In this document: one piece after another, positions 14,530 through 31,097 of the stretch | How the letters are laid out: each line of letters starts with the position of its first letter | Numbering within the stretch: position 1 is the stretch's first letter | Source of the DNA: Candidatus Zixiibacteriota bacterium | GTDB lineage: Bacteria; Zixibacteria; MSB-5A5; GN15; FEB-12 | Reading direction: 5' to 3' | NCBI GenBank assembly: GCA_029860345.1 | Contig: JAOUBJ010000008.1 | Coordinates: 1 to 64,000, forward strand | DNA: 64,000 nt | Program-made: the position numbers and the translations under genes | The notes under the pieces: model-generated | What the model was told of the DNA's origin: nothing | Seen by the model: the letters and a program-made list of their open reading frames with translations, nothing else | Databases searched by the model: none

Positions 14530-17043
14530 TCACAACTCCATAGCCGGACGGATTGATCCGTCATCTTCCATCCGGTACATATCCTGCCGATGAAACGTGA
14601 AGGCCGGCACCATTTCACCCAGGTCGGGAAGCAACAGCCTGACCACTTCGGTCGGGCGCACGTAGACAGACTGGCCGACACCCAGCACCATTTCCAGCCG
14701 GTCGTTTTGATAGGTGAGATCATAGATTCCCGGACGGACATCGACAGTCTTGACTTCAGATTTAGTTTCACGTTCCACGTCGAGTCGTTCAGCCGTCATC
14801 AGAGCGCTTATCTGCCGGGCGATGGTGTCCTTGCCCATCGCGTTCAACCTCGCGTTCTCAGAGATTACGTAGACCACTCTGTTTAACGCCGCCGATAGAG
14901 ACTGGGGCTTACCATAGACAACCTTGGCATCCAGAATCTCCATACCATCCGGCATGGTTCGCTTCAGGTTTTGTATCATATCAGGCATAAGATTCTCTTC
15001 AAGAGTTATATCGACATATTCGGACCCGGAAGTGAATCCTAAAGGCAGAGGAGGTCCGAACGACAATCTCATCGAGGGATTGAATCCCTGGCTGTAGGCG
15101 ACCGGCACCGACGCCCTTCTGATGGCCCGTTCCAGAGCGCGCATGTTGTCAAGGTGCGACATGTATCTCAACCGCGTCGTTTTCCCCCAGCGCAGACGGA
15201 CTCGATTTCTGGTCGGCGCCGAGAGAGTGCTTCGTCCGGCTACTTTCTTCTTGGCCCGGCCGAAAGTCGGTGACGGTTCGCTCCGCGGTTGGGGGGCAGC
15301 ATTCGACGAAACCGGATCGTGCCTCTTTAACTGGTTGGAAGTGCGCTGCCGTTCCGCCTGCAGATGTTCAGCCGTCGGACCCTTGGCAATGTGCGCCCAG
15401 GGTAGGTCACTGCTGAAGGGAATCGGTTTTAGACAAGAGTCGAGGTCTATCCCATTCTCGTCCAAAACGGAAAACCAAAGCTGGTGATCGAAATCCTCGC
15501 TCCAGCCGTCGAAGCGCCCCCCCTTTTTGAATACCGTTTCGATGACATCGGCAAACCGTCGATCACCACGCCCGAGAACCGCCTGCAAAAGCGAAGACTC
15601 GACATTGTGGTGTTTGAAGTTGACCCCACGTACGCGGCAGTTGCGCTTGATAAACTGCAAACGGTTCAGTGTTTCGGCCACGGATAGTATCTCGTCCCAC
15701 TGCAGCGGCGTATGCGGCTTGGGCGCAAATGGAGACAGAGTTATATTGATCGTCTTCCGACCCGGATACTCACGTCCGATGCGATATATCTCCTGCAGGA
15801 TTGTGAGAATTCCGCGCAGGTCTTCTTCTGTCTCCGACGGCAGGCCGATCATGAAATAGAGCTTGATCGTAGTCCAGCCTTTTTCGTAGGCCAGCCGGAT
15901 AGTGTCATAGATGGCGGCGTCGGTAACATCTTTTCTCACGAATGCGCGCAGACGTTCCGTGCCCGCTTCGGGCGCCAGGGTCAGACCGGACTTGCGGACA
16001 CGGCTGGCTGCATCCAGCAGCGTGGCACTAATCGTGCCGGGCCGCAAGGCGGGCAGGGCTATTGAAACGCGCTGCGATTCGAGCCTGCGTGACACCGTGT
16101 TGGCCAACTGGTCGATCTGGGGATAATCGGATGACGATAGAGATACCAGTGAAACTTCGTCGTATCCGGTTGTGCTCATTTGGGTGGATATTTGCTGAAG
16201 GATGTCGTTCTGCGAACGTACCCGTACCGGTCGGTAGATGGGACCGGCCTGACAAAAACGACAACCCTGAGGACAACCGCGCATGATCTCCACAGCCAGA
16301 TGTGGATGCACCGTTTCGATGAGTGGGACTATCGGTTGGCTGGGGTAGTTGGTTGGTTTCAGGTCAGTCATCAGTCGAGCTTGGATCCTGGCCGGAGCGA
16401 AATCTACCGTGGGTCGACCCTGATCGTCATAAAAGCGCGGCACATAGACTGAGGTGACTTCTTGAACCAACCGGGTCAGTTTTTCCTCGCGTGTTGCCGT
16501 TCTCATATCATGAAGCACCGAGAGCATCTCGACCAAACCGTCTTCGGCGTCACCTATGAAGAAAAGATCAATGAACCCGGCCATCGGTTCCGGGTTGTAG
16601 GCGGCGGGACCACCGGCGAAAACCAGCGGATGGTCATCCAGACGGTCCTTGGCGCGCAGCGGTATCCCGGCCAGGTCAAGCATGGCCAGCACGTTGGTGG
16701 AAACGAGCTCGTAGGTCAGGGTGAAACCAATCGCATCGAAAGCTCCGGCCGGTCGTGTGGACTCGAGCGAAAACAGGGGGATGTTCTCACGTCGCATGAT
16801 TTCCTCGGCGTCACGATCGACGGCAAAGACGCGCTCAGCCAAAAAGCGGTCGTCTGAATTGACCAGGTGATAGAGAATCTGTAAACCGTAGTAGGATGAA
16901 CCGATCTCGTACTTGTCGGGAAAGGCTATCAGGTAGTTGACACGACCTGAGGGCTCTTTGACGATCTGCCCCGGCTCACCGCCGGCATATCGGCCCGGTT
17001 TGACCACATAGGGCAGCAGCTTTTCTTCGATTAGAGGTCGCAT
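14530..17043 (-). CDS. Fused B12-binding-type radical SAM protein with DUF2344 domain
   Basis: A protein of about 837 residues with two known modules. The N-terminal part (about 1-590) is a radical SAM protein of the TIGR03960 type. It has a preceding B12-binding-like region and the cluster motif CPQGCRFCQAG (Cx3Cx2C) near residue 255. The C-terminal 230 residues carry the DUF2344 (TIGR03936) domain: TTRLRYMSHLDNMRALERAI, then SQGFNPSMRLSFGPPLPLG. Many bacteria encode these together near rRNA/tRNA-modifying or ribosome genes. The reaction is unknown to me. ATG 17043 is preferred to an in-frame TTG at 17052. It is followed by rsmB with almost no gap. Confidence 0.88.
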   Translation of the reverse strand: MRPLIEEKLLPYVVKPGRYAGGEPGQIVKEPSGRVNYLIAFPDKYEIGSSYYGLQILYHLVNSDDRFLAERVFAVDRDAEEIMRRENIPLFSLESTRPAGAFDAIGFTLTYELVSTNVLAMLDLAGIPLRAKDRLDDHPLVFAGGPAAYNPEPMAGFIDLFFIGDAEDGLVEMLSVLHDMRTATREEKLTRLVQEVTSVYVPRFYDDQGRPTVDFAPARIQARLMTDLKPTNYPSQPIVPLIETVHPHLAVEIMRGCPQGCRFCQAGPIYRPVRVRSQNDILQQISTQMSTTGYDEVSLVSLSSSDYPQIDQLANTVSRRLESQRVSIALPALRPGTISATLLDAASRVRKSGLTLAPEAGTERLRAFVRKDVTDAAIYDTIRLAYEKGWTTIKLYFMIGLPSETEEDLRGILTILQEIYRIGREYPGRKTINITLSPFAPKPHTPLQWDEILSVAETLNRLQFIKRNCRVRGVNFKHHNVESSLLQAVLGRGDRRFADVIETVFKKGGRFDGWSEDFDHQLWFSVLDENGIDLDSCLKPIPFSSDLPWAHIAKGPTAEHLQAERQRTSNQLKRHDPVSSNAAPQPRSEPSPTFGRAKKKVAGRSTLSAPTRNRVRLRWGKTTRLRYMSHLDNMRALERAIRRASVPVAYSQGFNPSMRLSFGPPLPLGFTSGSEYVDITLEENLMPDMIQNLKRTMPDGMEILDAKVVYGKPQSLSAALNRVVYVISENARLNAMGKDTIARQISALMTAERLDVERETKSEVKTVDVRPGIYDLTYQNDRLEMVLGVGQSVYVRPTEVVRLLLPDLGEMVPAFTFHRQDMYRMEDDGSIRPAMEL

Positions 17044-17837
17044 ACCAGTCAATACGTGCTTCGTTCACAGTTCACTTGCTGTACGATACCAGAATCGCAA
17101 CGGGCGGGCAAGTGAGAACTTGGTTGCAGGCAAGCAGGCAAGCCTGCTTTTTCGCGCTATTCGCTCCTTAAGTCTGAAGCAGAGTGGCCGACAGATTGGG
17201 CCTTGCTGGAAATCCCCGGTGGCCGTCATTGCGAGCGATCCGCGCCGCAGGCGGGGCGGAGGAGCGCGGCAATCTCACGCCTCGACTGCGCTCGGCATGA
17301 CAGGTGTACAATGAATTGAGATTGCCACGGCACGCAAGGCGCTCTTCAAAATGACGATTCCGTGGGTTTGTCAACAGACCCCTTGCTGTGGGAAACAGAT
17401 TCTTCACTTCTTCGGCACCCCACCCAGAGGCTTTGCGGCGGGTGGAAACCTATCTGGTCAAAAGCCCGCACAGCCGTAGGTCAGGACCCCTTGTGGTCCT
17501 GACATCCCGCGCCCAAAAAGCCATTTATGGCCGCGGGATTCTTCACGGTACCCCACCCAGAGGCTTTGCGGCGGGTGGGATTCTATCTGTTCAAAGGGAA
17601 CCCACCTGTCGCTTCGCTGCAGTTGGAATACCAGGTGTCGGGCGGGATCGCCCAACACCACTCTAATCGTGTGTCGGGTCACCGTCACGCCTTCGGCGGG
17701 ATCAAGACCCAACACAACGGCGCGTTTTTTTTCAGTCCAATCAGGCTGACCTGCGTGAAATATTGAATATTCCGTCAACCCATACCGAAGAAATGAGTAC
17801 AAGGTCTTAGACGTTTAGGAAGCTGTTCGAGACTGGA
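17044..17837. repeat. Gene-free repeat mosaic upstream of the glycosyltransferases
   Basis: It holds a 'gtcattgcgagcgatccg...gcggcaatctca' unit (17224-17276), two direct copies of a 31-bp string ccccacccagaggctttgcg... (starting about 17419 and 17550), the composite hairpin element 17475-17579, and a 'tgtcgggcgggatcgcccaacac' hairpin (about 17636-17659). No gene is credible here. Confidence 0.75.
17475..17579 (+). repeat. Composite hairpin element, copy 2
   Basis: Same order of parts as 7115-7201: cgtaggtc opening, stem gtcaggacc/ggtcctgac, gacatc, a second hairpin (cccgcg...cgcggg with an inner ccatttatgg), gtacc, then cccaccc...gggtggg. The first stem differs from copy 1 at several positions on both arms, keeping the pairing. 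Confidence 0.65.
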
Positions 17838-20237: not shown

Positions 20238-21476
20238 ATGTTGACGACCTTCAGCCATTCAAGCCTTGGAAGTTTTCGCCGTTGTCCGAAACAGTTTCAA
20301 TTTAGATACGTCGACAAACTGAAAGTCCCCAGGGTTATCACGCCGGACACCTATCTCGGAACGGCGGTCCACCGAATCCTCAGAAAACTCTACAAGCTGG
20401 GCGCCGACCAGATAGTCATGCCTCTTGAAGAGGCTGTGGCCGAATACCAAACTGAGTGGAACAAAATCGATCTGGCCCATCTGCAGGTGCAGAGCGAGCA
20501 TTATACTGTCGACGACTATATTCGAATCGGCGAAGATATGCTGAGGCAGCACTATGAGAAATACCAGCCGTTCAACTTCGGGAAACTTCTGGGGACGGAG
20601 CTGTATCTCAGTTTTGAACTTCCCAACACGCCGTTCAAGGTTCGCGGTTACATCGACAAACTCTGGCGTCGCGTCGACGGAACAGTGGAGATTTGCGATT
20701 ACAAAACCGGGATGACGATTGCCAGGCCTCAAGACGAGGGTTACCGATGGCAGATGGGTATCTACGAACTGGCCGTGCGGGCGACCTGGCCACAGCATGA
20801 GACCATCGAAGTGGCACAGCACTTTCTGCGCCAGGATGAGATCGTGCGATATCGCATGACTATCGACGATCTTGATTTATTGACCGAGGATATCCGCAAT
20901 GTGGTCATGGAGATTCATCAGGCCGATCGCACCCAGAACTTCCCGGCTCAAGAAAGCCCGATGTGTCGCTACTGCGACTATCAGGCGTACTGCCCGGCCA
21001 AACGGCATGAGCGAATGTTGGCGAAACAACCCGACGATCATCCTCCCGACGGGACCAACGAGGCCGAGCGATTGGCCGATCTGGCTGATCGCTATCTTGC
21101 TCTGTACTCACAGAGCAACAAGGCCAAGGCAGAAATGGATGCACTCAAGGAGGAACTCCGCCAGGTAGTACGCGACGGTGGCCCCACCAAGATGGTCGGC
21201 AGCCTGGGCCACGTTGGTGTGAAACTGGGTACCGTGGAGAAATTCATAACCAAGACTCGCGACAGCGACGGTTTCGCCGCGCTGTCGGCTCTGGCGCGAG
21301 AGATGGGCTTCGATGAGTACTTTGACTTGAATGCCCGAGCGTTGTTTAAACAACTCTGCGCCACCAAGCGTCTAACCGACGAACAACGTAAGGCCCTGGC
21401 GCCTTTCGTGTGCAAAGAGGAAGAGTCACGAATAACCGCCAAACCTCTTCAACAGACGGACCCCGAAGATGAGTAG
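20238..21476 (+). CDS. PD-(D/E)XK nuclease with Fe-S cluster (Cas4/RecB-like)
   Basis: The approximately 412-residue protein carries the PDDEXK_1 nuclease core: LGTAVHRILRKLY, then F-x-V-R-G-Y-I-D-K-L (motif II Asp) and V-E-I-C-D-Y-K-T-G (motif III D-x-K). One Cys near the N-terminus (FRRCPKQFQFRY) and three near residue 250 (CRYCDYQAYC) make the four-Cys [4Fe-4S] arrangement of Cas4 and AddB nucleases. No cas genes or helicase are near, so a DNA repair role is more likely than CRISPR adaptation. An extra C-terminal region (about 280-412) has a helical segment of unknown role. ATG 20238 is preferred to GTG 20232. Its stop codon directly precedes the next open frame. Confidence 0.88.
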   Translation: MLTTFSHSSLGSFRRCPKQFQFRYVDKLKVPRVITPDTYLGTAVHRILRKLYKLGADQIVMPLEEAVAEYQTEWNKIDLAHLQVQSEHYTVDDYIRIGEDMLRQHYEKYQPFNFGKLLGTELYLSFELPNTPFKVRGYIDKLWRRVDGTVEICDYKTGMTIARPQDEGYRWQMGIYELAVRATWPQHETIEVAQHFLRQDEIVRYRMTIDDLDLLTEDIRNVVMEIHQADRTQNFPAQESPMCRYCDYQAYCPAKRHERMLAKQPDDHPPDGTNEAERLADLADRYLALYSQSNKAKAEMDALKEELRQVVRDGGPTKMVGSLGHVGVKLGTVEKFITKTRDSDGFAALSALAREMGFDEYFDLNARALFKQLCATKRLTDEQRKALAPFVCKEEESRITAKPLQQTDPEDE

Positions 21477-22481
21477 ATGCCCCTCCAGGAAAACGGACGC
21501 ATCAGACCGAAAGGCATCGATCGAGTGAAAAGACGCGAATTTATCAAGCGAGCTTCGCAAGCCACCGGTCTGGCAGCCGTGTGTGTCGGTGGCGGATGGT
21601 TCTTTCACGACCGGGAGTGGTTCAAGTATGAACCACCAATCGTGCACAAACCCGACTTCCAGATTGCTCCGGACAACGCCTATCCCCAGATATCACTCAG
21701 CCGCAACCAGGATCATGTCCTCGCCCTGAGAGATGCACTTGATGCTGTTGGCGGTATCGCGCGTTTTGTCCGGGCAGGTGAGCGGGTAACGGTCAAACCG
21801 AACGTCGGCTGGGACCGCACCGCCGCTCAGGCGGCCAACACCTCGCCAGTGCTGGTCGGCGAGATGGTCAGGCAATGTCTCGACGCGGGAGCGGCTGAAG
21901 TAATTGTTACCGACGTGACCTGCAACGAAGCCCGCCGGTGTTTCCTGCGCTCGGGAATCAAAGAAGCAGCCGAGAAAGCAGGCGCCAAGGTTATTCTTGC
22001 GGTCGAGGACGATTACCTGGTGATGGACCTTAAGGGCAGGCTGCTCACCAGTTGGCCGGTGCTGAGACATTTTGTAGAAACCGATCGGCTGATCAATATG
22101 CCGATCGTGAAGCATCATTCGCTGTCCATGTGCACCGTGGGCATGAAGAACCTGTACGGCATCCTCGGCGGTCGACGCAACCAGCTTCATCAGGAGATAG
22201 ACCAGTCTATAGTCGACCTGGCCATGTTCAGTCGTCCCACCTTGACGGTGGTCGACGCTACCCGTGTGTTGATGCGCGGGGGACCGCAGGGCGGATCGCT
22301 CGACGATGTCAACATCGAACATTCGGTGATCTGTGCCACCGATCAAGTTGCCGCCGATGCCCGAGCGGTTGAGTTTTTGGGGCTGGCGGCGGCTGATGTT
22401 GCGCACATCGTGCAGGCCGAAAAGGCCGGACTCGGCTTGATCGATTACCGTGCGGCCGGATACAAAGAGAACCTTGGATGA
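21477..22481 (+). CDS. DUF362-family protein with Tat signal
   Basis: A 334-residue DUF362 protein. The family is often linked to iron-sulfur and redox proteins but its reaction is not established. Core motifs seen are ERVTVKPNVGWD, then VTDVTCNEA, HHSLSMCTVGMKNLYGILGG and GGPQGGSLDDVN. The N-terminus has a Tat-type signal, RREFIKRASQATGLAAVCVGG. Two starts are possible: the ATG at 21477 touching the previous stop codon, or the GTG at 21525, which would put the twin arginines at residues 3-4. The latter looks natural. It overlaps the next gene by 4 bp, so the two are coupled. Confidence 0.88.
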   Translation: MPLQENGRIRPKGIDRVKRREFIKRASQATGLAAVCVGGGWFFHDREWFKYEPPIVHKPDFQIAPDNAYPQISLSRNQDHVLALRDALDAVGGIARFVRAGERVTVKPNVGWDRTAAQAANTSPVLVGEMVRQCLDAGAAEVIVTDVTCNEARRCFLRSGIKEAAEKAGAKVILAVEDDYLVMDLKGRLLTSWPVLRHFVETDRLINMPIVKHHSLSMCTVGMKNLYGILGGRRNQLHQEIDQSIVDLAMFSRPTLTVVDATRVLMRGGPQGGSLDDVNIEHSVICATDQVAADARAVEFLGLAAADVAHIVQAEKAGLGLIDYRAAGYKENLG

Positions 22482-24169
22482 CAGTCGGAACGGTCAGGAA
22501 CCTAAGACGTTTTTCGCAGGTTTCGTTTTTTGGCGTTTTCTGCTGGCTGGTACTTAAGACCAATTTTGAAGTAGCCATTAGTCCCGACACAGTGTCTGAG
22601 GTTTTTCTTCCCTATCCGGTATCTATCGCCCTGCAATTCGATCCCCTGGTCGCTTTGACCACTTTGCTGGCCAACGGTACTCTCTTCAAGGGATTGCTGT
22701 GGTCCCTGGCGGTCTTGATCCCCACTATCTTCCTTGGTCGGTTTTTTTGCGGTTGGGTCTGCCCTTTGGGAACGCTGAATCATTGGATATCCGAGATACG
22801 CTCGGAACGAATCAGCTTTCGCGGTAAGGGAAAAATCGAATCGAATCGCTACAAGAAGTACCAGCGCATCAAGTACTACATATTTCTGTTCATGATCGCT
22901 GCCGCCCTGTTCGGCACTCTGCAGTCCGGTCTGCTCGACCCGCTACCGTTGATGGCTCGTTCCATAGGTACCTTAGTGTTGCCGACAGCGCATGCCGCAG
23001 CCGATGGTGTGCTGGGCTGGGTGAAATCCTTCGGGTTCAAACCGCTGTCCGGTGCCGCCCAGTTTGTTTACGATATGTTCGCACCATTCCTGCTGAATTT
23101 CCGACAGGTACATTTTCACGGCATCGTCAGTATTGCGATTCTCTTCGGTGGCATCGTGGTTACCAACCGAGTGTTCACCAGGTTCTGGTGCCGAGGTCTT
23201 TGTCCGCTGGGTGCAATGTTAGGTATCTTTTCGCGATATGCGACTTTCGGACTGCAGAAGGATGAGAAGAGTTGCGACCATTGCAACCTCTGTCTCCAGA
23301 GTTGTCAGGGTGCTGACAATCCGGATGTGGGCACACGCTGGCGTCAGACGGAGTGTCATGTCTGTCTTAACTGTCAGGCGGCATGTCCGCAGGGTTCGCT
23401 CGACTTCAAGTTTTTCCCGACGCTTGAGGGCACCAGGACAAATCCACCCCCCAATCAACGAGTAGATATCACCAAAAGAAAGACCGTTGCCTCGCTGGCT
23501 GCCGGGGCTGCCCTCTTCCCTATGCTGCGCTCCGGCGATTCTTTTGAAATCAACGCCGACTCGCGTCTGATTCGCCCACCCGGCTCGGTGATCGAGGATG
23601 ATTTTCTCGCCCGCTGTATTCGCTGCGGCCAATGCATGCGTGTCTGTCCCAACAACGCCCTGCATCCCACCCTGCTGGAGTCCGGTCTGGAAGGTGTTTG
23701 GACACCTATCTTGATTCCAAAAGTTGGCTACTGCGAACCTTCATGTACACTTTGCGGGCAGGTCTGCCCCACCGGTGCTATCTTAGAACTCACTCTTCTG
23801 GAAAAAGTCGGTGACAAAGAGACGCCGGCGAACCGGATCGGCACCGCATTCTTCGATCGTGGTCGCTGCCTGCCGTGGGCGATGGCCACTCGCTGTATCG
23901 TGTGCGAAGAGTGGTGCCCGACCTCCCCCAAAGCCGTCTACCTAAAAGAGGAACTCGTAACCGACCGCCAAGGCAAGGAAGTGCGTGTCCAACGCCCCTA
24001 TATCGACCCCGATCTTTGCACCGGATGCGGCGCCTGCGAGTTCGCCTGTCCGGTGGTCGACCAACCGGCTGTCTACGTGACATCGGTGGGTGAATCGCGT
24101 TCGCCGGACAACCAGATTCTGTTAAGACGAAAAAAACCGACCACAATTCCACCGGGAGAAACGCCATGA
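22478..24169 (+). CDS. NapH-NapG-like fusion: membrane polyferredoxin
   Basis: A 563-residue protein joining two modules that are separate genes in nitrate and methylamine systems. Residues about 1-300 resemble NapH. There are four membrane segments, two inverted FCGWVCPLG / WCRGLCPLG motifs at membrane edges, then CDHCNLCLQSC and CHVCLNCQAACP ferredoxin motifs. Residues about 330-563 resemble NapG/MauM: a Tat-like hydrophobic stretch (KRKTVASLAAGAALF), then CIRCGQCMRVCP, CTLCGQVCPTGA, CIVCEEWCP and CTGCGACEFACP. It probably moves electrons between the quinone pool and an external acceptor. It lies within the DUF362-lipoprotein operon with 4-bp overlaps on both sides. Confidence 0.88.
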   Translation: MTVGTVRNLRRFSQVSFFGVFCWLVLKTNFEVAISPDTVSEVFLPYPVSIALQFDPLVALTTLLANGTLFKGLLWSLAVLIPTIFLGRFFCGWVCPLGTLNHWISEIRSERISFRGKGKIESNRYKKYQRIKYYIFLFMIAAALFGTLQSGLLDPLPLMARSIGTLVLPTAHAAADGVLGWVKSFGFKPLSGAAQFVYDMFAPFLLNFRQVHFHGIVSIAILFGGIVVTNRVFTRFWCRGLCPLGAMLGIFSRYATFGLQKDEKSCDHCNLCLQSCQGADNPDVGTRWRQTECHVCLNCQAACPQGSLDFKFFPTLEGTRTNPPPNQRVDITKRKTVASLAAGAALFPMLRSGDSFEINADSRLIRPPGSVIEDDFLARCIRCGQCMRVCPNNALHPTLLESGLEGVWTPILIPKVGYCEPSCTLCGQVCPTGAILELTLLEKVGDKETPANRIGTAFFDRGRCLPWAMATRCIVCEEWCPTSPKAVYLKEELVTDRQGKEVRVQRPYIDPDLCTGCGACEFACPVVDQPAVYVTSVGESRSPDNQILLRRKKPTTIPPGETP

Positions 24170-25065
24170 TACGTCCATGTCGAGTCATTCTTGTCGCCAT
24201 AGCCCTATTGGCCCTCACTCTTGCTTGCTCAGGTGAGCAGACTGAAGTCGACACGGCAACCGTTGACCACCTGGCTGAGGCCTACGCCACCGTCGGTATC
24301 GACCGGGCTGCCCCACCGCGTCTGTTCGTGGGACAGGACCTGTATGAGTATATCAATGGCGGCGCTGAGTTGTACCATCTATATGGTTTCCAGGAAGTGG
24401 CCACCGCCGACTACAAGAAAGGCGCGACCGAAATGGTCGTGGACCTCTATCGTTTCGACTCGCCGCTCAACGCCTTTGGACTCTACTCCATGCTGCGACC
24501 GGATGAAGCAGATTTGACCCGGCTGGGGGTGGAGGGATTCTTGGCGCCGTCAAAAATCGAGTTTGTCAAAGGGGATCTTCTGGTGCGCGTGATAGGCTAC
24601 GACGATTCGGACGAGACCGGGCTGGCCTTGATCAATCTCGCCGATGAGATCAACAAACAACTCCCCGGCGCAACCAAACTGCCGACCGCTTTTGAGTCGT
24701 TTCCATCGGCAGAGGTAGTCGACGGATCAGCCAAGTACTTCACCGAGGCGTATCTTGGCCAGAGTTTTCTGACCTCGGTGTATTGCCGTGACTACCAAAT
24801 GGACAGCTCGGTGGTGACTCTGTTCTTGTGTCAGGCAGACGGGGGCGCCAAGCTGCTGGAGTGGTCCCACCGGGCAGAAGAAGCGGGCAAGCTGGTTGAC
24901 GCCCCGGCTGATCTGACCTTTGACGATGGCAAAGCAATCGGTATCAACGACAGCTACTATGGCCAGATAGTAGCCGGTATTAAGGGCGGCCAAATGGTCG
25001 GCATGGTCGGTTTCTCCGTTGAACATCAGGCGTTCCTGGATGATTGGCTGGACGCAATCCAATAG
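24166..25065 (+). CDS. Lipoprotein, DUF6599-like
   Basis: A 299-residue protein with a lipoprotein signal peptide (VAIALLALTLACSGEQ; Cys at about residue 21). It then has the pattern LYEYINGGAELYHLYGFQEV, which I associate from memory with the DUF6599 family. The rest looks like one alpha/beta domain (VVDLYRFDSPLNAFGLYSML, then DLLVRVIGYDD). Function is unknown. It overlaps the NapH-NapG fusion gene by 4 bp, so it is probably an external partner of that redox protein. It is the last gene of the plus-strand operon and converges with the gene at 25102. Confidence 0.8.
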   Translation: MIRPCRVILVAIALLALTLACSGEQTEVDTATVDHLAEAYATVGIDRAAPPRLFVGQDLYEYINGGAELYHLYGFQEVATADYKKGATEMVVDLYRFDSPLNAFGLYSMLRPDEADLTRLGVEGFLAPSKIEFVKGDLLVRVIGYDDSDETGLALINLADEINKQLPGATKLPTAFESFPSAEVVDGSAKYFTEAYLGQSFLTSVYCRDYQMDSSVVTLFLCQADGGAKLLEWSHRAEEAGKLVDAPADLTFDDGKAIGINDSYYGQIVAGIKGGQMVGMVGFSVEHQAFLDDWLDAIQ

Positions 25066-25101
25066 GATATGACCGGATGACCGTTTGAGCATCCTTTCGG
25101 A

Positions 25102-27249
25102 TCAGTAGCTTCGTGCGGTGATAATCGCACCCACCAAGGCGACGGCCAAAATGAGTTCGAGAGTCACGAGCAGTCCTGTAACTCCCAACATCGGCAACAA
25201 AAGAGTGAGCGTCAGAAGCGCTCCGATAGCCGAGCCCAAGACCTCCACGGCATAGCCGATACCTCGGTTGCGCAGGGGACGATTCTCGTAGTAACGCCGG
25301 GTGGCGGCCACGAAAAGTGAACCGGTGGCCAGAGCCATGACGAACAGGAAAAGCAGATGGTATCCAATGGCCGTTGACGGTTCGATGCGATTCCATGTCA
25401 AACCGAAAATGGCGCCTGCTAATATCAGGACCACAAGCGCCGGATACTCCAGGTGTCTGCTTTTCAACTGCTGGGCGTAATACGTTCCGACGGCCAAACC
25501 AAGCATGAAGGAGCCGACCAGTGCGGCCAGTTCCGAATAGAGCGATCCGGCGGTGGTCTGAAAAACATAGAACGAAAGCAGTTCCAGAGAAATAGAGATA
25601 AGTCCGGCCACCAAGTACATAAACAGGCCAAATCGACGACGACGATCCCGACCGACAGATGCGTAGGTTAACAAGCCGAAGATAGGCACTAGTCCCAGCG
25701 TATATCCGTATGGCTGTTCAAGCCAGAACGACAAGATCAATCGATCCCTGTCGCCCGTCGAACGGTACAGCGCCTGCCGGTGCGGCAAAACCGGTCTGGC
25801 TGCGCTGTTGACATCGGAGTCCGATGACAATGCGGAGGTAAGCCGCTCCCGTTTGAATTCGTTGAGCCGATCACGAAGAAAGCTCTCGCTCAGGAAAGTC
25901 GGGTCGTACTCAAGCCTGTTCATGCGAACAACCAGACTGTCTGTACTTACTCCGAATAACGAAGCGTTCGACGCCATCAACAAAGTCTCCCCCCCCGGCC
26001 ATACCACGACCTGATCGAAAGACGCCGCTAAGCTGTTTCGAATAATCGAGAGCAAGGCCGCCACATCGTCGCTGACATATCGGTCGGTGTCGTATGCTGT
26101 GGGAATGACAAGCAACCCACTTTCCGTCAGGAGCCGCTGTGTTTGCCGAAAGAATTCCGGTGTCAGCAATCGATTGGTTTGGTAATTGTCCGGTTCACCG
26201 GCATCAATGATTATCACATCAAATCGCTCACGCCCGGCCCGCTCGTTAATGAACGAGAGTGGATCGTCGGTCAGGCGGGTCACTCCGCCCCCAAAAGATG
26301 TTGCATTTTCGGCCGGCCCATTCAGGCTTCGACGTGGGTCTACCGCGGTAAGGTGCAACGGCTCCAGGCGCAACGTCAACTGAGCCAGTCCGAATTCGCT
26401 GCGACCGAAGTAGAGGATTTCACGAGCCATTGGCTGGTAGAGCATGGCCGGCAACAGCAGGTTCTCCGCCGTCCGCACATCCGGGTGCACCGCCTCCACT
26501 TTGTTGTCGGTCAGAAGTACGATCATATTGTCACGAGAAAGCACGGTCTGCCGACCGTATGGGGTGTCGAACGACTGCACCACGTGGTAGGGCTGGTATT
26601 TTATGCCGTCGAGAGCACTATCAATCCGCCCTGCTATCCATACCGATCCGAACAGAAGGCCTGTCGTGATCAGTGTGAACAGCGCCGTGGCCGCAAGGGA
26701 CCTCTCCCTATGATTCAGCGTCAGGAAACCGACGGCGACCACAACAACCGCCAAAGCCAAAGCCATATTTGACAGGACACCTCGGCTGAACATTGCTATC
26801 AACACACCGCCCACGAAGGCTCCTGCGCCCTCCCACAGATAGACGGTTACGACGGCGCCCTCACTGCCCCATCCCTCCTTCGCAATGACCGAAAACAACC
26901 AGCCTGATATCAGGCCCGGCGGTAACATCACAAGTATAGCCATGGCTCCGGCGGTAGCGAACGGGATAACCTGTCCGGCCACCTCGCTGACAAACAGCGG
27001 CAATAATCTGACCGCCGGTATCAACACGCACAAGACTGCACACCCGGCTATGAACAAAGCAACGGCTCCGGGCTGATGGGTGTCACGTCCGCCCAAATAT
27101 GAACCAAGAGTTACCGCCAAAAGCCATCCAAACAAAGCCAGACCGATGAACAATTCATCGCCGTTGAACGATGAGACAAGTTCACGCAAGAGCAGCACCT
27201 GTCCTGCGACCGAAAAGAAGCCGAGCAGGAACGGTTTGCCCTTGGTCAT
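25102..27249 (-). CDS. Membrane-embedded spermidine-synthase-like protein
   Basis: A 715-residue protein. About seven hydrophobic segments lead (residues 1-215), a spermidine-synthase-like Rossmann domain is in the middle (about 220-420), and six or more further helices follow (about 505-715). The central domain has PYHVVQSFDTPYGRQTVLS and FDVIIIDAGEPDNYQTNRLLT, typical of aminopropyltransferase-like proteins. However, the glycine-rich SAM-binding loop is replaced by LYFGRSEFGLAQLTL. Such fusions occur widely and their substrate is generally unknown; polyamine synthesis is unlikely. The gene starts directly next to the AmrS-like stop codon. Confidence 0.83.
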   Translation of the reverse strand: MTKGKPFLLGFFSVAGQVLLLRELVSSFNGDELFIGLALFGWLLAVTLGSYLGGRDTHQPGAVALFIAGCAVLCVLIPAVRLLPLFVSEVAGQVIPFATAGAMAILVMLPPGLISGWLFSVIAKEGWGSEGAVVTVYLWEGAGAFVGGVLIAMFSRGVLSNMALALAVVVVAVGFLTLNHRERSLAATALFTLITTGLLFGSVWIAGRIDSALDGIKYQPYHVVQSFDTPYGRQTVLSRDNMIVLLTDNKVEAVHPDVRTAENLLLPAMLYQPMAREILYFGRSEFGLAQLTLRLEPLHLTAVDPRRSLNGPAENATSFGGGVTRLTDDPLSFINERAGRERFDVIIIDAGEPDNYQTNRLLTPEFFRQTQRLLTESGLLVIPTAYDTDRYVSDDVAALLSIIRNSLAASFDQVVVWPGGETLLMASNASLFGVSTDSLVVRMNRLEYDPTFLSESFLRDRLNEFKRERLTSALSSDSDVNSAARPVLPHRQALYRSTGDRDRLILSFWLEQPYGYTLGLVPIFGLLTYASVGRDRRRRFGLFMYLVAGLISISLELLSFYVFQTTAGSLYSELAALVGSFMLGLAVGTYYAQQLKSRHLEYPALVVLILAGAIFGLTWNRIEPSTAIGYHLLFLFVMALATGSLFVAATRRYYENRPLRNRGIGYAVEVLGSAIGALLTLTLLLPMLGVTGLLVTLELILAVALVGAIITARSY

Positions 27250-28389
27250 TTAGAAGACTCCGGGGAGCAGGCGCCGACAGTGTTGGCATCTGCCGACTTT
27301 TAGATCGTTCCTGACAATGCGATAGCCGCGTCGCTCTATCAGGACTCTGTCACATCCGGCACAGTAGGTCGATTCGGCCGCGTGACCGGGAACGTTTCCG
27401 AGATAGACGTAGTGCAAGCCTTCACTTTTGCAGATAGCGTGGGCGCGTTCAAGTGTTTCAAGCGGCGTCGACGGCAGGTGACGCAGCAAATACTGCGGAT
27501 GAAAACGGGAGAAGTGAATTGGAGTATCACAGCCGAGATTGCCTTTTATCCATCGTGCGAGATCGGTAAACTCCTGGTCGGAATCATTCAGCGTGGGTAC
27601 AACAAGGTAGACTATCTCCAACCACACTCCCGCCTTTTTGATTTGTATCAGAGCGTCCAATACCGGCCCGAGTTCACCGTTGACGATCTTTCGGTAGTAG
27701 TCCTCTCGAAACGACTTCAGGTCGACCTTGATCGCGTCCATTTGCAGGCACAATTCGGCCAGAGGTTCTTTGTCGATATACCCCCCGGTTATCATGACCG
27801 ATGATACACCCTGCTCATGAGCTCGTTGAGCGATGTCATACATGTACTCGTAGAAAATCACCGGCTCGGAATAAGTGTACGCTATCGTTGGGACGCTCCG
27901 CTCCTTACAAACCTTGACCAGCTCATTGGGCGGGAGATCCGCGCTGTCTATCTGCTCCGGACGCGCCTGGGATATCTCCCAGTTCTGACAAAACTTGCAG
28001 TTCACGTTGCATCCGGCCGTGGCCAACGAAAACGCTTTGGTCCCCGGACGGAAATGATACAGCGGCTTTTTCTCAATCGGATCGATATTCAGCGAACATG
28101 GTCGACCGTAGACAAGCGTGTAGTAGGTATCCTTTCGGTTTTCACGAACGCCGCAGTAGCCGCGCTCAAGATCGGTGATGCGACAGTGCCGAGGACAAAG
28201 CCGACACTCGATTCCACCCTCGTCGAGCTTCTTGTAGTGCCGTGCTTCCACCGACGACAGATTGTTGCCGTTGTTAAAAGCACAGACGTTCTGGACACCC
28301 CCGAGCAGCTCCGGCCAGAGTTCCGAGTGCGAAGCCGCAGCAACTGCCGAAGCAGACCCCATACACTTAAGAAATAGACGCCGCTCCAT
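27250..28389 (-). CDS. amrS: AmrS-type radical SAM protein with Tat-like N-terminus
   Basis: A 379-residue radical SAM enzyme of the AmmeMemoRadiSam AmrS family. An N-terminal four-Cys section (CRLCPRHCRITDLERGYCGV) precedes the SAM cluster motif CNVNCKFCQNW (Cx3Cx2C). Then come AYTYSEPVIFYEYM and a C-terminal Cys cluster (CAGCDRVLIER, CQHCRR) that may bind zinc. The N-terminus ERRLFLKCMGSASAVAAAS matches a twin-arginine signal and no Met suitable for a shorter start lies before the conserved region. The usual partners AMMECR1 and Memo are not in the window. The gene overlaps the upstream DUF362 gene by one base. Confidence 0.87.
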   Translation of the reverse strand: MERRLFLKCMGSASAVAAASHSELWPELLGGVQNVCAFNNGNNLSSVEARHYKKLDEGGIECRLCPRHCRITDLERGYCGVRENRKDTYYTLVYGRPCSLNIDPIEKKPLYHFRPGTKAFSLATAGCNVNCKFCQNWEISQARPEQIDSADLPPNELVKVCKERSVPTIAYTYSEPVIFYEYMYDIAQRAHEQGVSSVMITGGYIDKEPLAELCLQMDAIKVDLKSFREDYYRKIVNGELGPVLDALIQIKKAGVWLEIVYLVVPTLNDSDQEFTDLARWIKGNLGCDTPIHFSRFHPQYLLRHLPSTPLETLERAHAICKSEGLHYVYLGNVPGHAAESTYCAGCDRVLIERRGYRIVRNDLKVGRCQHCRRLLPGVF

Positions 28390-29309
28390 CAGAAGAGCTT
28401 CCCTTCCTGTATGCGACCCTTGTCGTTCACCACTTGCACCCGCAGGTCGATCTTCGATATGTCGGCCGTACCTAAACCATGAGCCTGCGCCGTCTGAAGA
28501 TACCTGGCCGGACGATTCGCTTTTTCAAGCGACGGCAAACCAGCCTCCCTGCGACAGTGCTCCACAATCTCAAGACCGACACGATCAACGGCCACAGGAT
28601 CGTCGGACAGCACGATGCCACCATAAGGAGCTATGAAGCCGGGATCATAACCGGGTCCGTTGCTGTACTGCACCTGCACGGCGTTGATGATAGTGAGGCG
28701 GTTCCGGGTGCGAATAGGAACCATAAGCGAAACATCGGCCACATGCGGATCACAATTGTTGCCATGAAACTTATTCGGATTGTTAATGGCTCCGAACATG
28801 TTTTTCATACCACCGGACAGACCGGCAATTGAATGGTCTTTCAGCACCGGCAGATTGATGTTGCCGGTCACAGCACTTTCCAGGATGCGACTGATCAAAC
28901 TTGAGGACTCCCCCGCGCTATGGAACTCATAACCGTAACCGACACCGTTGGCATCGGTACCCAGACACCGTCGGCCGAGATTCGAGGCGTTCAGCTCAAA
29001 TCCAGCCTGCTGCAACTCGCGGCTGGTGCGCTCCCACACCACGACATCGTTGGGCTGCCATCCGGCATTCTCAAGAATATCAGCCAAAGCACCAACCAAC
29101 GGAACCGGGGTCGAGTTGAACTTCCCGGTCAGGCAGTTCGTTTTCAGACCTACCGCACCCTTGGGTAGCAGTTTTTGAATAGCTGCGATCACCGACGTTT
29201 GATTAGTTAGAGTGGTCAGACCACTGGAGACCAGTTGCTTATATTGGGCGAGATTCAATCGGTCGCCTCGAATCCCTGCCTCATGCCTGACTACAACAAC
29301 TTGGCTCAT
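28389..29309 (-). CDS. DUF362-family protein without export signal
   Basis: A 306-residue DUF362 protein, starting at ATG 29309 (MSQVVVVRHEAG). The longer open frame upstream lacks a ribosome site. Family features are AVGLKTNCLTGKF, VVVWERTSRELQQAG, LPVLKDHSIAGLSGGMKNMFGAI and GYDPGFIAPYGGIVLSDD. It is a paralog in family, not in close sequence, of the Tat-tagged DUF362 protein at 21477. It heads the minus-strand operon DUF362, amrS and the spermidine-synthase-like gene, all overlapping or abutting. The Cys ligands seen in ferredoxin-fused DUF362 proteins are absent. Confidence 0.87.
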   Translation of the reverse strand: MSQVVVVRHEAGIRGDRLNLAQYKQLVSSGLTTLTNQTSVIAAIQKLLPKGAVGLKTNCLTGKFNSTPVPLVGALADILENAGWQPNDVVVWERTSRELQQAGFELNASNLGRRCLGTDANGVGYGYEFHSAGESSSLISRILESAVTGNINLPVLKDHSIAGLSGGMKNMFGAINNPNKFHGNNCDPHVADVSLMVPIRTRNRLTIINAVQVQYSNGPGYDPGFIAPYGGIVLSDDPVAVDRVGLEIVEHCRREAGLPSLEKANRPARYLQTAQAHGLGTADISKIDLRVQVVNDKGRIQEGKLF

Positions 29310-29629
29310 ACAGATTATAGTATGCAGGGGGCCATGCCTGTCAACCCCTTTTTGACTCGTAACAGTAGGCTGTTGATTGTCCCCGGGCGACATGCGAGAG
29401 TTGAAACAGTTCTATCCCGCGTCGTTGCGAACGAGTCCCCCGCCACCGGCGAGGGACGAGAGCGGCAATCTCATGTGGTGTCGCGACGAATCCGCCCGAC
29501 ACCTATAGTTCGCCATATTGCCGTCAGGCGAATCGCCTGACAGCACCTTCGCATCTTCCAGGGAGATTGCCGCGGCCACGCGAAGAGCGTGGCCTCGCAA
29601 TGACGCTTTGGGTGTTCTGGGGCAATCCG
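29310..29629. repeat. Repeat-containing spacer
   Basis: Between yebC and the DUF362 gene lie two 'cgttgcgaacgagtc...agcggcaatctca' type units (about 29403-29475 and 29564-29605). Between them is a gccgtcaggcgaatcgcctgacagc hairpin (about 29519-29543). The promoter of the DUF362 operon should also be here. I cannot place it. Confidence 0.65.
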
Positions 29630-30436: not shown

Positions 30437-30840
30437 CCCAGACCTTGTCATTCCCGCGCAGGCGGGGTGGCAAGCCACTCTTTTCTCTGTTGCGTCGGTT
30501 CTTGCGGCTGCGCTAGCAGGCGTGTGAACCGACGGCTCCCACAGCAAGCTGTGGGCCACCCAGACCTTGTCATTCCCGCGCAGGCGGGGTGGCAAGCCAC
30601 TCATTTCTCTGTTGCGTCGGTTCTTGCGGCTGCGCTAGCAGGCGTGTGAACCGACGGCTCCCACAGCAAGCTGTGGGCCACCCAGACCTTGTCATTCCCG
30701 AGCAGGCGGGGTGGCAAGCCACTCTTTTCTCTGTTGCGTCGGTTCTTGCGGCTGCGCTAGCAGGCGTGTGAACCGACGGCTCCCACAGCAAGCTGTGGGC
30801 CACCCAGACCTTGTCATTCCCGCGCAGGCGGGAATCCATC
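30437..30840. repeat. Three tandem 122-bp repeats plus a partial fourth
   Basis: Copies start at 30437, 30559 and 30681 with an exact 122-bp period, and the fourth (30803) ends as a complete cgcaggcgggaatcc hairpin. I see only isolated differences, for example ctctttt/ctcattt in copy 2 and cgcgc/cgagc in copy 3. Each unit carries three hairpin modules: the left half of a 'cattcccgcgcaggcggg' hairpin, cggttcttgcg...gcgtgtgaaccg, and cccacagcaagctgtggg. Frames through it encode identical repetitive peptides and are not genes. Confidence 0.93.
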
Positions 30841-31097
30841 TTATCTGTCATTCTGGCGAAGGCCAGGCGGCAAGCCACTCTTTCGCGCTTCGCGCGTGGC
30901 AGTCATAGGTAGGTCTGTCTTTAGACCTGCCAAGTCCACCAAGATGACAGATTCCAGCCATTCAGAATAACAAATCAGCCTTTACTTGGCAAGAGGGAGT
31001 TGGGGGGCTGCAGCAGCTGTTTCTGCTTGCCTAAACCGGTCTACTCTCTGTTTCTTTCCGTCTGACATTGTTATACACAGAATGAGGATTGTCCACC
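30841..31097. other. Spacer upstream of the HIT gene
   Basis: The left part contains degraded repeat remnants (gcgcttcgcgcg; gtaggtctgtctttagacctgcc at about 30909-30931). The right part is AT-richer and presumably holds the HIT promoter. I see no gene. Confidence 0.5.

Follow-up and report, generated by a model that had tools for sequence, protein, structure and literature searches.

Radical SAM enzymes are regarded as intracellular, since SAM and strong reductants are. One of them, AmrS, belongs to the AmmeMemoRadiSam system, which is represented by three curated models (TIGR04337, TIGR04336 and TIGR04335), and the Memo/AMMECR1 family of its other proteins includes human MEMO1 and AMMECR1. 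In the literature searched we found neither a biochemical activity of AmmeMemoRadiSam nor a paper describing an exported form of it, and searches on DUF362 with radical SAM, on exported or periplasmic radical SAM and on DUF6599 returned nothing relevant. For the individual protein families more is available. Iron in MEMO1 is bound by H49, H81 and C244 (PMC11081632), DUF362 proteins share a Pfam clan with LarA nickel-pincer racemases (PMC11770544), and the four-cluster half of dual Sec/Tat polyferredoxins reaches the outside by means of an internal twin arginine (PMC5449189).

The locus considered here lies in a window of 64,000 nucleotides (G000:C8:1-64000), which is the whole stretch of DNA analysed, from a Zixibacteria genome of 4.76 Mb that is 99% complete. 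Our main reading, to which we give a probability of about 0.6, is that this locus encodes most of an exported AmmeMemoRadiSam system, that is, a variant of the known one, with a NapH-NapG electron wire, a carrier and a Memo-AMMECR1 partner. Its features are as follows.

20238..21476, plus strand: PD-(D/E)XK nuclease-like gene (PF12705, 118 bits), abutting the plus-strand operon
21525..22481, plus strand: DUF362a with Tat signal VKRREFIK (PF04015, 152 bits; RR motif in relatives)
22478..24169, plus strand: NapH-NapG fusion polyferredoxin with internal Tat motif, KR in the window (profile scores; PMC5449189)
24166..25065, plus strand: DUF6599 lipoprotein with lipobox near Cys 21 (PF20244, 138 bits)
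25102..27249, minus strand: membrane protein, predicted as 14-TM and MFS-like, with a spermidine-synthase-like domain between TM7 and TM8 (AF2 pLDDT 89.4; Foldseek; positive-inside rule)
27250..28389, minus strand: AmrS, the Tat-tagged AmmeMemoRadiSam radical SAM enzyme (TIGR04337, 387 bits; CxxxCxxC)
28279..28389, minus strand: AmrS Tat signal (MERRLFLK...VCA|F); conserved cleavage site of A-x-A type around residue 37
28389..29309, minus strand: DUF362b with predicted LarA-like fold and without signal peptide (PF04015, 69 bits against a cut-off of 24; AF2)
29317..29344, minus strand: promoter-like element directly before the DUF362b start codon (consensus scan)

The two operons converge tail to tail, their ends at 25065 and 25102 being separated by 36 bp, and not head to tail as was stated in the sequence-only reading. 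Other parts of that reading survived: profile matches supported the families assigned to the plus-strand operon (DUF362 with Tat signal, NapH-NapG-like fusion and lipoprotein) as well as the composition of the minus-strand one (DUF362, AmrS with a Tat-like N-terminus and a membrane spermidine-synthase-like protein), and genes inside each operon indeed abut or share 1–4 bases. This arrangement is not a matter of chance, as its gene pairs are found again in other genomes of the phylum and in further phyla. The range 20238-29309, taken originally as two redox operons, holds for six genes, while the first (20238-21476) is nuclease-like and probably a bystander outside the system. Its membership was rejected, as it stands near the cluster elsewhere only once, the sole hint being a homologue of 27% identity next to DUF362b in locus L129. 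The Tat-bearing start of DUF362a is probably GTG at 21525, and DUF362b starts with ATG at 29309, just behind a TTGACA/TATAAT-like element that is weakly supported, the scan total being not above that of shuffled sequences. Given this element adjoining the start codon, the DUF362b mRNA is possibly leaderless. Two further features of the window were registered. A second radical SAM protein, a Radical_SAM_N2 / radical SAM / DUF2344 fusion, is encoded at 14530-17052 on the minus strand, about 8 kb from the operons. A tandem direct repeat with a period of 122 nt, three copies of about 99% identity and partial copies occupies positions 30437-30883 upstream of a yebC-like gene and contains a REP-like core (TGTCATTCCCGCGCAGGCGGGG).

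The radical SAM enzyme of the window scored 387 bits on TIGR04337, for which the cut-off is 220. N-termini were compared in 112 AmrS proteins, 91 of exported type and 21 others, some loci in this set being duplicates of one genome. A twin arginine in the context RR-x-[FLMC] was found in all 91 exported-type proteins, a set spanning about ten phyla, and in only 1 of the 21 others, a divergent Armatimonadota paralogue (L196_7). The stricter pattern RR-x-F-x-[KR] fits 71 of the 91, an A-x-A type cleavage site is present in 85, and the radical SAM motif CxxxCxxC is kept in every one of them. In a tree of 95 AmrS proteins built without the signal region, exported and other types split at one branch (SH-aLRT 97), and a single change of type was observed versus 19.2 for shuffled labels. 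Thus, the Tat-like N-terminus that had been noticed in the window is conserved in homologs of the exported type. A wrongly assigned start codon as its source was rejected because the signal is found in 91/91 proteins and the AmrS start overlaps the DUF362b stop. TatC is encoded in the genome. Taken together, sequence features make export of AmrS outside the inner membrane a well supported prediction. The Armatimonadetes locus L196, which includes the only twin-arginine AmrS beyond the exported score range, combines three AmrS paralogues with two DUF362b genes.

Memo and AMMECR1 are absent from the 64,000 nucleotides of the window, and their counterpart was found elsewhere in the genome, as an exported Memo-AMMECR1 fusion on G000:C2 (MHKNILTIALVLITLTVYSQALG...) that exceeds the cut-offs of both TIGR04336 (247 bits) and TIGR04335 (180 bits). 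It is this protein that allows the whole to be identified as an exported AmmeMemoRadiSam system. A search of 132 genomes of the phylum, followed by reading of the neighbourhoods, revealed such a fusion divergent from the DUF362b-AmrS-SpdSyn operon in 15 of 16 Zixibacteria loci of relatives; in the exception (L124) no Memo-AMMECR1 was found within the stretch read. These divergent fusions start with signal peptides. A hydrophobic segment precedes the mature start in all 37 Memo proteins linked to the AmrS/DUF362b cluster, with a loose lipobox match in 10, while unlinked Memo genes of the same phylum are mostly devoid of a hydrophobic signal. The copy of this genome bears a Sec signal and those of some relatives a lipoprotein signal. 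Equivalents of H49, H81 and C244 are invariant in 38/38 exported Memo proteins, this genome's copy included, which together with the CxxxCxxC motif intact in 91/91 AmrS argues that the exported set has not decayed. A separate, signal-less set is also present in the genome, with Memo-AMMECR1 on contig C7 and AmrS on C9.

The first gene of the minus-strand operon encodes DUF362b. Candidate relatives of it numbered more than 543; of the 80 best, drawn from about ten phyla, 61 have AmrS within 250 bp behind them on the same strand. The model of DUF362b (AF2 pLDDT 96.9) was matched by Foldseek to LarA/malate racemases (E 3e-6, TM 0.5), while a search of solved structures gave no sequence relative and no match to any solved LarA. 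In most cases DUF362b carries its own Tat signal in KSB1, Acidobacteriota, Eisenbacteria, Armatimonadota and Planctomycetota, whereas it is signal-less in Zixibacteria and in the majority of Aminicenantes. Heterodimers in which one partner bears the signal can be exported by Tat (PMC10924467), and on this basis we hypothesize that signal-less DUF362b may hitchhike on AmrS through Tat. The genome has a gene for LarC, a protein of the nickel-pincer cofactor (G000:C2:263290-264420). Tat-tagged homologues of DUF362b also occur in Scalindua and a related planctomycete (L184, L189, L193, L195, L200, L206 and L215), where the stretch read contains no AmrS and sugar-nucleotide (rfbB/rfbC-like) genes adjoin them.

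The spermidine-synthase-like protein comprises 715 residues, which the AlphaFold2 model (pLDDT 89.4) arranges as two sets of seven helices with a soluble domain of about 290 residues between them; the helix number is that of the model, a simple hydropathy count ranging from 9 to 14. The membrane part gave weak Foldseek matches to the MFS transporters POT, NorC and SV2A (E about 2e-4 to 3e-3, 8–12% identity). Short loops contain on average 14.3 lysines and arginines on the N-terminal side versus 2.6 on the opposite one, and the direction of this bias is the same in 40/40 sequences, so that by the positive-inside rule the soluble domain should lie outside. We infer, therefore, an MFS-like carrier of 14 TM helices that displays its soluble domain on the outer face. 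It was suggested earlier that this protein handles a SAM-related or aminopropyl-like product, which can be taken as transfer of an aminopropyl group or something similar from a SAM derivative. This reading can appeal to the soluble domain, which Foldseek matches to SpeE-type aminopropyltransferases, to the GGGxGG SAM motif kept in Aminicenantes and some other Zixibacteria, and to the presence of a gene for SAM decarboxylase in this genome. Within the clade of the window, however, the glycine motif is degenerate (GRxEFG, GRSEFG in the window) and the DxxDP-type acidic catalytic motif is altered; the polyamine aminopropyltransferase model scored 42.8 bits against a cut-off of 472, all other curated polyamine models were far below their cut-offs too, and one half of the protein resembles an MFS carrier. 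On this balance we consider aminopropyl transfer very improbable, and an ordinary polyamine enzyme was rejected on the low model scores and degenerate motifs. A carrier or binding role fits the protein better. In several distant Zixibacteria families the carrier gene is followed by an S41/PDZ processing-protease gene (L128, L129, L130, L133-L138, L151, L152, L154, L158, L159 and L173).

An alternative is that AmrS does not leave the cytoplasm at all. Its twin-arginine N-terminus might serve only as a tether that holds it at the inner membrane face, with the chemistry remaining cytoplasmic, as would suit the cytoplasmic location of SAM and low-potential donors and a DUF362b that has no signal here. 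Such a tether would hardly account for a cleavage site conserved in 85/91 proteins, for Sec or lipoprotein signals on the Memo partner, for DUF362b with a Tat signal of its own in several other phyla and for a carrier domain predicted to face outward. Retention of AmrS inside thus seems to us quite improbable.

The plus-strand operon encodes the polyferredoxin, in which a NapH half, a Tat motif before the last helix and a NapG half with 16 Cys follow each other. Among 16 compared sequences the internal motif reads RR in 15, and in the window it reads KR; the scores on the curated NapG (103.8 vs a cut-off of 269) and NapH (67.7 vs 234) models fall short. The proposal that this membrane ferredoxin is an electron wire is plausible and fits the dual Sec/Tat family (PMC5449189). 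Its association with exported AmrS was estimated in two phyla. In Zixibacteria 71 genomes have both, 8 only exported AmrS, 11 only NapH-NapG and 42 neither (p 2.6e-16), the respective numbers for near-complete genomes being 50, 4, 2 and 27. In Acidobacteriota, where exported-type AmrS was assigned by score, they are 29, 9, 7 and 74 (p 1.5e-13). Because the genomes counted are related, both p values overstate independence and are not probabilities of independent events. Beyond these phyla a NapH-NapG homologue is present in 35 of 39 genomes bearing DUF362b. Physical linkage to exported AmrS was found from coordinates in 24 Zixibacteria genomes, plus locus L207, and again in the Acidobacteriota loci L214 and L216. 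DUF6599 borders the DUF362b-AmrS-SpdSyn operon in Aminicenantes and adjoins the same operon in Terriglobales.

A different view of these data would be that AmrS and Memo work alone, while NapH-NapG, DUF362a and DUF6599 form a general electron module that became their neighbour by chance in one clade. NapH-NapG is certainly a broad known family (PMC5449189), it is unlinked from AmrS, together with DUF362a, in family f4 as well as in more distant families of Zixibacteria, and it occurs without exported AmrS in 11 Zixibacteria genomes, many of them fragmented MAGs, and in 7 Acidobacteriota ones. Nevertheless, chance proximity in one clade does not explain strong co-occurrence with concerted absence in two phyla, recurrence of the linkage in Acidobacteriota or the 35/39 homologues elsewhere, and we regard two independent modules as an unlikely though not negligible explanation. 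Co-occurrence and linkage in two phyla thus indicate that the two operons belong together, in agreement with the original suggestion that they serve one process.

If the exported AmmeMemoRadiSam system operates as its composition suggests, AmrS would acquire its iron-sulfur cluster in the cytoplasm and be exported folded via Tat, possibly carrying along DUF362b, which has no signal of its own. NapH-NapG would receive its electrons from quinol or on the inner side, and its outer four-cluster domain would hand them to AmrS. SAM would have to arrive on the outer side, the carrier being the leading candidate for transport of SAM or of a product derived from it, and Memo-AMMECR1 may then use its iron site to act on the radical product. 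An envelope-borne substrate of AmrS is a guess. Alone, quinol or menaquinol is not a strong enough reductant for a radical SAM cluster, and therefore the system needs a ferredoxin-level donor or some energy coupling. HdrC/HdrB-like and 2-oxoacid:ferredoxin oxidoreductase genes stand directly behind the exported AmrS operon in up to 12 loci of Aminicenantes (including L166, L168, L177, L179, L185, L191, L197 and L221). They are suggestive of a low-potential donor, plain synteny within one lineage being the alternative. That the membrane protein carries SAM is likewise deduced from its architecture, and the degenerate SAM motif of the outer domain in the window's lineage counts against this scheme. 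We put forward only tentatively the full picture of radical SAM catalysis outside the cytoplasmic membrane in about ten phyla, supplied by the NapH-NapG wire and by SAM delivered through an MFS-type carrier with an outer spermidine-synthase-like domain. Because a radical SAM system with export tags is conserved across about ten phyla alongside an electron wire and a candidate carrier, extracytoplasmic SAM chemistry can be tested directly, and the exported system offers a fresh approach to what Memo/AMMECR1 proteins do.

Compared with known systems, the components of the locus combine familiar and divergent traits. DUF362b shares with LarA nickel-pincer racemases its predicted fold, and LarC is encoded in the genome, while a sequence match to solved LarA is lacking and the comparison is one of fold alone. 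The soluble domain of the membrane protein resembles polyamine aminopropyltransferases and membrane SpdSyn-like proteins in its SpeE-like fold and departs from them in being set, with degenerate SAM and catalytic motifs, into a 14-TM MFS-like body that is predicted to expose it outside. The polyferredoxin has the same NapH half, internal twin-arginine helix and 16-Cys NapG half as the NapH-NapG fusion of MLMS-1 (Q1NSB0), a dual Sec/Tat polyferredoxin (PMC5449189), differing by KR in place of RR in the window and by its genetic partner, which is exported AmrS and not nitrate reductase. AmmeMemoRadiSam is matched in all three of its proteins, which score above curated cut-offs here and have intact catalytic motifs. 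What distinguishes the variant described are the export signals on AmrS and Memo-AMMECR1, the location of the latter on another contig in this genome, and the addition of DUF362b, the MFS-SpdSyn carrier and NapH-NapG.
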